Shown here piece after piece: positions 1 to 9,379 of a stretch of DNA of 22,892 nt. Each line of letters starts with the position of its first letter. Position 1 is the first letter of the stretch. The translations under genes and the position numbers were made by a program. Source of the stretch: a virus; IMG/VR virus record IMGVR_UViG_3300047457_000898, positions 1 to 22,892 of that record; one strand, given 5' to 3'. The notes under the pieces were generated by a model that saw only the letters and a list, made by a program, of their open reading frames with translations, was not told the DNA's origin and made no database searches.

Positions 1-112
1 CATCAATATTAGAAATGTTTATATTGATAAAATCTGGATGAGGTTTGATTTCTTGAAAATGTTGTATTTCCATCACAACTTCTTCATTTTCCGAAATAAA
101 TTTGTAAATCAT
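1..112 (-). CDS. Partial hypothetical protein (N-terminus only)
   Basis: An open reading frame starts at the ATG at 112 and runs off the left edge after 37 codons without a stop. The visible peptide begins MIYKFISENEEVVMEIQHF and is acidic at first, then rich in Ile and Asn. I do not recognise it. It is AT-rich (14 of 60 bases G/C at 1-60 by hand count), lower than most of the window. It lies just downstream of the T-tract of a hairpin terminator, so its expression may depend on read-through or on a structured leader. A second in-frame Met at codon 14 is an alternative start. The frame is supported only by being open and in the direction of all other genes. Confidence 0.5.
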   Translation of the reverse strand, partial: MIYKFISENEEVVMEIQHFQEIKPHPDFININISNID

Positions 113-127
113 AATAAAAAAATTAAA

Positions 128-223
128 TAAAAAAACCCGACCATTTTACTTGCGGCTTCCACGTCGCTTTCAAATAATCGGGTAATAATTCGTTTTCAGT
201 TACTATATTGTGGAAGCGTAACT
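128..223 (-). ncRNA. Candidate structured RNA: two hairpins with complementary loops, ending in an intrinsic terminator
   Basis: Read on the minus strand, hairpin 1 has arms AGTTAC/GTAACT (plus positions 218-223 and 198-203) and a 14-nt loop containing GCTTCCAC (210-217). Hairpin 2 has arms ACCCGA/TCGGGT (178-183 and 135-140), and the second arm is followed by a run of seven Ts, as in an intrinsic terminator. Inside hairpin 2, GTGGAAGC (155-162) is the exact complement of loop 1, and a small inner stem GCGAC/GCCGC would present GTGGAA as a hexaloop. The two loops could therefore kiss over six to eight base pairs. A TAnnTTTG box lies just upstream. It may be a small RNA of about 95 nt, or a regulated terminator for the gene at 112. 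The pairing is read directly from the sequence; function is inferred. Confidence 0.4.
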
Positions 224-227
224 TTCG

Positions 228-235
228 CAAATATA
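228..235 (-). promoter_or_regulatory. Possible Bacteroidota -7 box (TATATTTG)
   Basis: The minus strand reads TATATTTG, a match to the Bacteroidota -7 consensus TAnnTTTG. A start about five bases downstream would coincide with the first arm of hairpin 1 of the candidate RNA. No convincing -33 TTTG or TTG stands at the usual 17-23 base spacing; the TTG at 263-265 is too far away. The box lies just past the stop codon of the nuclease gene. Confidence 0.3.
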
Positions 236-239
236 CGTT

Positions 240-626
240 TTATTTAAATGCCATGTATTCGTCAATTATTTTTTTCGTGTCTTCAAACCCAACTGAAAAA
301 GTTGCGTAATATCCAAGTCTATTCAACTGGTCAATAGTGTGTTGTTGATTTGCCAAATGTTCCGATTTCAAAAGACAACCGTCTTTCTTAAAAGGTGATT
401 TTGCTTTCAACTCAATGAACAAACCGCTGAATCGATTATTCGGTTTCAGAATCAAAATATCGGGACAATGAAAACCGCGTTTCTGAATTGAAGAATTCCT
501 GACACGTTGCGGAATTGTCAAATGTAAATTCGCAATCGTGTCGCTCAAATACAAAACTTCTTTATACTGGATATTCAAGTAGTTGCACACAGCCTTTTGA
601 AGTTCAAATTCAGGTTGATTTTTCAT
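240..626 (-). CDS. VRR-NUC-type PD-(D/E)XK nuclease
   Basis: This 128-aa protein has the layout of small phage VRR-NUC nucleases: an N-terminal helix with Glu8 (EFELQKAV), a CPDILI strand with Asp56, then GLFIELKAK with Glu72 and Lys74, and a helix containing Gln94/Gln95 (HLANQQHTID). These match the PD-(D/E)XK metal-binding core followed by the family's conserved Gln. It ends in a GYYATFSVGFED strand-loop. Stand-alone VRR-NUC proteins of this size are common in phages and are thought to cut branched or flapped DNA during replication, recombination or packaging; the exact substrate here is not known. Its ATG overlaps the stop of the previous gene by ATGA, so it is the last gene of the left operon and is probably translationally coupled. 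Confidence 0.8.
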   Translation of the reverse strand: MKNQPEFELQKAVCNYLNIQYKEVLYLSDTIANLHLTIPQRVRNSSIQKRGFHCPDILILKPNNRFSGLFIELKAKSPFKKDGCLLKSEHLANQQHTIDQLNRLGYYATFSVGFEDTKKIIDEYMAFK

Positions 627-1165: not shown

Positions 1166-1609
1166 TCAGTTTAAAAATTTACTGATTTGCTGTTCCATAA
1201 GACGCAAAGTGTTCACCTCGTTTTTTGTATGGTCGTCAGTTGCGTAAAAAAATCTTTCTGTTCCAGCAACTATTTCGTCAATCTTTAATTTCATTGCGCT
1301 GTCATATCCTTCCAGCGCGTTGATTACTTTCTTCAAAGAGTGAACGCAAGTTGAATGGTCTTTGTTTCCAACAAATTGACCAGCGGCTTCAAAAGTTGAT
1401 CCGGAAGCGTATTTGAATGCAATCAAAATTTGTCGCCATTGAACAACCTCTTTCTTTCTTGTTGTCATTCGAATTTCGGTCAACGTGAAAGGGCAAATTT
1501 TCAAAACGTTGTTCGGATCGAAACAATAGTTTTCAGGAAAGAATTCTCGCAACTTGTCAATATGAAACCGAGTTCGCAAGTCTTGCTTTTTTTCTGTGTT
1601 CATATTCAA
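1166..1609 (-). CDS. Stand-alone DnaA domain IV-like DNA-binding protein
   Basis: Residues 76-95 (AGQFVGNKDHSTCVHSLKKV) align without gaps to the helix-turn-helix signature of bacterial DnaA domain IV, the part that binds DnaA boxes (E. coli has RDHTTVLH there). The preceding RKKEVVQWRQILIAFKY (51-67) matches the helix before it. The base-contacting Asp-His-Ser/Thr-Thr and the later His (84-87, 90) are kept. No Walker A or B motif is present and the protein is only 147 aa, so it lacks the AAA+ domain. The N-terminal 45 residues and C-terminal 40 are unassigned. It probably binds DnaA-box-like DNA in replication or regulation. Its start overlaps the methyltransferase stop by ATGA. The domain call is strong, the role inferred. 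Confidence 0.85.
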   Translation of the reverse strand: MNMNTEKKQDLRTRFHIDKLREFFPENYCFDPNNVLKICPFTLTEIRMTTRKKEVVQWRQILIAFKYASGSTFEAAGQFVGNKDHSTCVHSLKKVINALEGYDSAMKLKIDEIVAGTERFFYATDDHTKNEVNTLRLMEQQISKFLN

Positions 1610-9094: not shown

Positions 9095-9379
9095 TCACAA
9101 AACGATTACGACGCTTCCCGAAGACAATTGAACCGAACTGAATTTGTTCGGAACGTCAAACGAATTCGGATTCTTTGGTCGAATGATTGCACCAAGTTTA
9201 ACAGCGGTTGAAGCGTTGGCAATGTATTCAGAAGTTACGTCAACGTCGTCAATTTTAATTGACGAAATAATCGTGTCTTCAAGAACAACAATTGCGTCAA
9301 AGTTTCCAGTAAATTCAGACGTATCGTTCAAAACAAATGAACCAGCGCCGCCCGAAATTATTCTCAAATCATTTTCCAT
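9095..9379 (-). CDS. Small beta-rich virion protein, 94 aa
   Basis: Starts MENDLRIISGGAGSFVLND, then FTGNFDAIVVLEDTIISSIKI and LGAIIRPKNP, ending FSSVQLSSGSVVIVL. The repeated short beta strands with Gly and Ser turns and a hydrophobic strand at the end look like a single compact beta domain. Similar short proteins sit among tail or fibre genes of Bacteroidota phages, but I cannot name a family with confidence. It starts 1 base after the 756-aa gene stop and ends 1 base before the 48-aa gene, so all three are co-expressed, and a structural role on the tail or fibre base is likely. Confidence 0.7.
   Translation of the reverse strand: MENDLRIISGGAGSFVLNDTSEFTGNFDAIVVLEDTIISSIKIDDVDVTSEYIANASTAVKLGAIIRPKNPNSFDVPNKFSSVQLSSGSVVIVL

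Follow-up and report, generated by a model that had tools for sequence, protein, structure and literature searches.

What is the stretch of DNA between two minus-strand genes of this phage that no gene accounts for, and what would it do for the gene that follows it? The window, which is the whole stretch of 22,892 nucleotides that was analysed, is a phage contig whose minus-strand genes include a DnaA-like HTH protein, a DNA methylase, a tape-measure protein and a capsid protein. An initial annotation reported two hairpins with exactly complementary loops followed by seven Ts on the minus strand, and proposed either a small RNA or a switch for the gene at 112. Both hairpins, the complementary loops and the Ts are present, the pairing spans 8 nt, and the stretch is uncovered by any ORF, the ORF before it ending at 240 and the one after it beginning at 112. 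The features are collected in Table 1.

Table 1. Coordinates of the kissing-loop element and the flanking genes in the window.
Feature	Position	Strand	Basis or remark
Kissing-loop element, whole	235-129	minus	~95-nt RNA predicted
-7 box of a Bacteroidota sigma-A promoter (TAnnTTTG), TATATTTG	228..235	minus	sequence
Hairpin 1: stem AGTTAC (223-218) / GTAACT (203-198); wide loop of 8 kissing nt + 6	198..223	minus	sequence, MFE
Kissing sequence K, GCTTCCAC, in the hairpin 1 loop	210..217	minus	exact complement of 155-162
14-nt linker joining hairpins 1 and 2, GAAAACGAATTATT	184..197	minus	alignment A1
Hairpin 2: 12-bp outer terminator stem, internal loop GAAA / AAGTA, inner stem GCG/CGC	135..183	minus	plain folding
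Kissing sequence K', GTGGAAGC, in the tight hairpin 2 loop (2 nt, AC, + 8 nt)	155..162	minus	exact complement of K
T-tract of 7 T, putative intrinsic termination site, abutting or merging with the hairpin 2 stem	129..135	minus	sequence
Downstream gene start, MIYKFISENEEVV..., runs off the window	1..112	minus	ATG 112-110, first codon 16 nt past the T-tract
Upstream gene, 128 aa, PD-(D/E)XK/VRR-NUC-like by eye	240..626	minus	stop 4 nt before the promoter box

Within the hairpin 1 loop the kissing sequence GCTTCCAC is followed by AATATA and then by the GTAACT arm. Hairpin 2 is as real as the initial annotation held, but the six-pair stem quoted for it is too short; its outer arms, ACCCGATTATTT (183-172) and AAATGGTCGGGT (146-135), pair over 12 bp and enclose the inner arms GCG (167-165) and CGC (154-152). 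Plain folding of the element recovers both hairpins (-23.6 kcal/mol, z -2.7, equalled by none of 200 shuffles). The loop-loop pairing is a pseudoknot, which is beyond what plain folding can show; taken alone, the 8-bp K/K' duplex has a predicted energy of -12.3 kcal/mol. The GC-closed 12-bp stem followed by seven Ts has the sequence form of an intrinsic terminator. The upstream box was also correctly reported. A box of the TAnnTTTG type lies at -12 to -5 in Flavobacterium psychrophilum (PMC9723704), which would put the start of transcription at about 223, at the foot of hairpin 1. A generic scan of the window for sigma-70 promoters and short-loop terminators picked up neither signal, because the promoter is Bacteroidota-type and the terminator loop is long.

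Relatives were collected by scans of IMG/VR and of cultured phages, giving about 90 non-identical elements; the IMG/VR pattern scans account for more than 100 loci among the matches listed, and many relatives are metagenomic fragments. Among the matches listed, 89 sequence-distinct elements contain 24 different kissing 8-mers, and their loop positions are Watson-Crick paired in 701 of 712 cells, at least 7 complementary nucleotides having been an entry requirement for this set. Selection by the promoter and hairpin 1 only gives a complement of at least 7 nt in 81 of 90 non-coding matches; among the coding matches 6 of 43 have a complement, and five of these six are true elements under chance ORFs. 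In a MAFFT alignment of 64 non-redundant elements all eight loop-loop pairs are altered on both sides, and 91.6% of cells pair. The whole-structure covariation of 0.467 compares with a shuffled mean of 0.158, is reached by none of 500 shuffles, and drops to 0.170 or less when the pairing is slid by 1-3 columns. The covariation check that had been suggested for the locus thus upholds the kissing-loop reading, and the pattern named beforehand as speaking against it, terminator arms kept while the loops go uncompensated, is the opposite of what the relatives show. Complementary loops with compensatory changes at 8/8 pairs and across 24 codes place the element in the structural class of kissing-loop RNAs, and its fold is well supported.

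The remainder of the element is conserved to differing degrees. Both-side changes occur in 4 of 4 pairs of the inner stem of hairpin 2 and in 11 of 12 pairs of its outer stem. Hairpin 1 hardly varies in elements of the window's design (class I), its sequence having belonged to the search patterns; at L076:3324-3439 its stem reads GTTGG/CCAAC, altered on both sides. The promoter box, which was part of some search patterns, is kept in nearly all relatives. GTTAC begins 4-8 nt past it, so that the foot of hairpin 1 falls at predicted +1 to +4. The linker is A-rich, AAARRAATT-like in most relatives (alignment A1) and 9-16 nt long in 90% of elements, and the start-to-start spacing of K and K' is 52-57 nt in 80%. 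T-runs of 4-10 (commonest 6) are found in 84 of 88 relatives. Plain folding likewise sees both hairpins in 84 of 88, with no alternative antiterminator evident. A blastn search against phage genomes matches only the promoter and hairpin 1 in Flavobacterium phages hattifnatt and snusmum, and the loops there read GCTTCGAC / GTCGAAGC, a compensated change. With the class I model (R1) true members reach 47-108 bits, and everything else, noise or other classes, stays below about 38 bits; the window scores 100.5 bits, being itself one of the 64 seed sequences.

Two pairs of loci, L079 with L091 and L010 with L124, have backbones only 2-4% apart and differ in their kissing sequences by two to four compensated changes; the code is therefore able to jump while the scaffold stays nearly the same. 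Faster evolution of K, as under diversifying selection, was rejected, as apart from a few jumps such as these K changes at about the rate of the rest or more slowly. An apparent length compensation between linker and hairpin 2 arms (r = -0.78) was also dropped, being largely a product of stem-boundary choice and the constant K-K' spacing.

The design is not confined to class I. The requirements of a sequence-blind scanner were TAnnTTTG, two hairpins with mutually complementary loops and a T-run, with no loop or stem sequence given. At a score of at least 42 it finds 99 elements in the related loci (1.88 Mb), against none when these loci are reversed; the window element scores 46. Sister types occur in Flavobacterium phages hattifnatt, mumin, snusmum and morran and in Tenacibaculum phages Gundel_1 and JQ. 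Class II has a 7-bp kissing interaction between two tight loops (hattifnatt 13299, GTCGTCG). In class III (hattifnatt 14334) the loop types are swapped: hairpin 1 has the tight loop, AA+8, and hairpin 2 the wide one, 8+5. At one orthologous class III site shared by closely related phages the loops are exact complements in each of them, reading GTGAGACG/CGTCTCAC in hattifnatt, GTGGAACG/CGTTCCAC in mumin and snusmum and GTGAGAAG/CTTCTCAC in morran. Genomes contain up to three or four elements, each time with a different loop code (three in hattifnatt, snusmum, G007 and G021, one of those in G021 low-scoring). Those of hattifnatt (hattifnatt9-1) lie at 9358, 13299 and 14334. Gundel_1 has one element, ahead of an antirepressor gene, and JQ has one, with GCATCCTAC. 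More divergent combinations of promoter, kissing loops and terminator with other stem designs were observed at L076:11889-11999, G021:3827, G008:15528, G009:23129 and G031:20853; the superfamily exceeds the class I model.

Rfam 15, which includes c4 antisense RNA, Bacteroidales-1, Flavo-1 and phage RNAs, gives no match at the gathering threshold for the window and four loci spanning all classes, and no match up to E 5 at a loose threshold in window 60-300. One class I pattern run over 84,980 bacterial genomes gives a single match (L143), which lies in coding sequence and was rejected as a chance match; restriction to phages is strictly shown for this one pattern. Matches in Prevotella Lak phages are not the element. 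No description of such an element was found in the open-access literature, and the Baltic phage paper (PMC7077304) does not contain 'terminator', 'promoter', 'intergenic' or 'RNA' as whole words.

All 89 class I elements are followed by a same-strand ATG. Its distance from K' is 25-47 nt for 80 elements and 57-68 nt for the other 9, whereas the gap separating the upstream stop from hairpin 1 ranges between 14 and 234 nt. The elements end about 5-20 nt short of the ATG of diverse, often accessory genes. Among 72 downstream genes there are 10 DUF6291, 8 NUMOD4 and 7 HNH_3 members, and others encode AP2, GIY-YIG, antirepressor, helicase, methylase and many small proteins, with nothing common to all. 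Confinement to housekeeping genes or to one downstream family was rejected on this diversity. Elements that are nearly identical and share their upstream gene are followed by different genes in L012, L017, L019 and L021, and also in L064, L071, L077 and L109. Hattifnatt and morran cease to be homologous 36 nt before element II, and morran is without this element and its endonuclease; for hattifnatt and mumin the break comes directly after element III. These breaks indicate that the element moves with an exchangeable block or, often, marks its boundary. The nuclease-like gene upstream in the window, which has no Pfam match, is also upstream in L008, L010 and L124. A gene for a DnaA C-terminal HTH (window 1166-1609) lies upstream of it, a neighbourhood as in the hattifnatt and mumin phages.

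We consider, with a probability of about one half (0.52), that the window element belongs to a phage-specific family of 5' leaders and acts in cis as an attenuator of an exchangeable early gene. Its fold, the kissing interaction, the restriction to phages and the position are supported by the data. Read from the sequence, a host-type promoter would start the RNA at about 223, and hairpin 1 would fold at the extreme 5' end, ready before hairpin 2 emerges. The apical loop of the emerging hairpin 2 would then form 8 bp with the hairpin 1 loop in an intramolecular kissing complex, a geometry suggested by the near-constant K-K' spacing. The outer stem of hairpin 2 and the U-tract would form an intrinsic terminator immediately ahead of the ATG, as the GC-closed stem and T-run suggest, and kissing, which is compatible with the terminator stem, probably fixes it. 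Most transcripts would end as a ~95-nt RNA, the downstream gene being expressed by read-through only, and the module may set, or conditionally release, its expression. No alternative antiterminator structure turned up, so the sequence does not reveal a switch mechanism, and we infer termination, the effect of kissing upon it and any trigger, like the transcription start.

Between the two possibilities of the initial annotation, the position of the elements speaks for a leader belonging to the gene at 112, because the distance to the ATG is constrained in 89/89 elements and that to the upstream stop is spread. A small RNA gene, whose ~95-nt kissing-loop product acts in trans on host or phage targets beside an incidental neighbour, is somewhat unlikely. 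It would explain the complete transcription unit with its own predicted promoter and T-tract, the stable compact fold, the short conserved A-rich linker and the lack of anything in common among downstream genes, and a terminator ahead of a gene could just as well release a small RNA on its own. The constant distance to the ATG might also be due in part simply to how densely phage genes are packed. However, the element is always co-directional with and near the next ATG at a variable upstream distance, several different copies share one genome, and the most accessible loops are consumed by internal pairing and vary freely, so that no fixed RNA target is possible. The different codes per genome fit parts that each act in cis; they are only mildly informative, because random loops would rarely match either. 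The matched, varying loops might instead be an address code by which the terminated leader acts in trans solely on its own nascent leader. Such autoregulation is distinctly improbable; if true, exchangeable phage genes would have an RNA counterpart of plasmid incompatibility, each copy or phage keeping its own code.

That the kissing structure is a 5' stabilising leader, shielding the mRNA of accessory genes from RNases and supplying a U/A-rich start region with termination of minor importance, is unlikely. The hairpin foot at predicted +1 and the U/A-rich stretch before every ATG agree with it, as does the expectation (PMC6847099) that Shine-Dalgarno sequences are not used in Bacteroidota, but a GC-closed stem with an immediate T-run in 84 of 88 elements exceeds the needs of a U-rich leader. 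Covariation cannot separate pairing within a molecule from pairing between molecules, as in phi29 pRNA-like dimers or rings that serve in structure or packaging; such pairing is very unlikely given the nearly constant K-K' spacing, the several loop codes per genome and the place of the elements before early or accessory genes rather than near terminase in the cultured phages. Finally, an ordinary terminator beside an unrelated repressor operator, the inverted repeat GTTAC/GTAAC at +1, could account for the near-invariance of that repeat in class I, which comes partly from its place in the search patterns. As a whole this is barely credible: all eight loop positions show compensatory changes, and other classes with wholly different stems still keep the loop pairing. 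A coincidental loop match is thereby refuted; an additional operator may be present.

As a putative cis attenuator the element is reminiscent of several known systems. The plasmid antisense attenuators of pT181 and pIP501 also combine loop-loop pairing with an adjacent intrinsic terminator in a 5' leader, and in synthetic attenuators of this type pairwise loop changes give orthogonal versions (PMC3753616). Their partner hairpin is on a separate antisense RNA, whereas the phage element has both in one leader and would need no antisense promoter. The complementary segments of c4 antisense RNA in phages P1 and P7 differ in matching fashion between heteroimmune phages. Similarly to the present element, c4 (RF01695) is a phage RNA that heads a transcript and has short complementary segments. 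It pairs with mRNA further downstream, whereas the partner here is the second leader hairpin. The two loops of phi29-family pRNA vary between phages yet stay complementary, their pairing being intermolecular on the packaging motor. The element shares the varying but matched loop pairs, but occurs in multiple copies before accessory genes with constant internal spacing, a promoter and a terminator; the constant spacing and the lack of a terminase neighbourhood in the cultured phages set it outside that family. In T4, leader hairpins of homing endonuclease genes hide the ribosome site, which resembles a structured leader before freestanding homing endonucleases (here NUMOD4/HNH), but the phage element is a kissing pair with a terminator and also precedes many non-endonuclease genes. 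The HIV-1 DIS kissing loop is a self-complementary dimer site. It resembles the tight loop, in which two unpaired 5' nucleotides (mostly AA, AG or AC) precede the pairing nucleotides, whereas a single phage RNA contains both hetero-complementary loops, one being wide.

The element thus represents an RNA family outside Rfam whose pairing is backed by strong covariation and which is present in phages but absent from every bacterial genome scanned with the class I pattern. It provides a natural library of matched kissing-loop codes joined to putative terminators. This is relevant to the way in which phages control the dose of genes they have recently gained, homing endonucleases among them, and to RNA parts for genetic work in Bacteroidota. 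A single host (Flavobacterium LMO6/LMO9) has cultured phages with up to three elements each, which makes the effect on termination directly testable.

Two further observations concern the region after the T-tract. In the longer-distance (57-68 nt) elements and at class III sites the interval from T-tract to start codon contains a second short conserved motif, possibly a small hairpin, and small proteins of about 65-75 aa follow. The motif is seen in L021, L027 and L064 (AAAGGTTACTCGTAATCCTAAAACGTTTA-like), in L013, L062 and L200:14450-14485 (TAGTTGTCGGTAATCTTTAAACC-like), in L006, L033 and L190, and in L047, L083 and L090. By eye, many of the short downstream proteins (MANIKLVF..., MIYKF...) resemble variants of one small β-rich fold; candidates lie downstream of L013, L021, L027, L062, L064, L066, L081, L100 and L130, together with the window gene at 112, which resembles the MIYKF... 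proteins of L066, L100 and L130. They possibly form an accessory or anti-host family.
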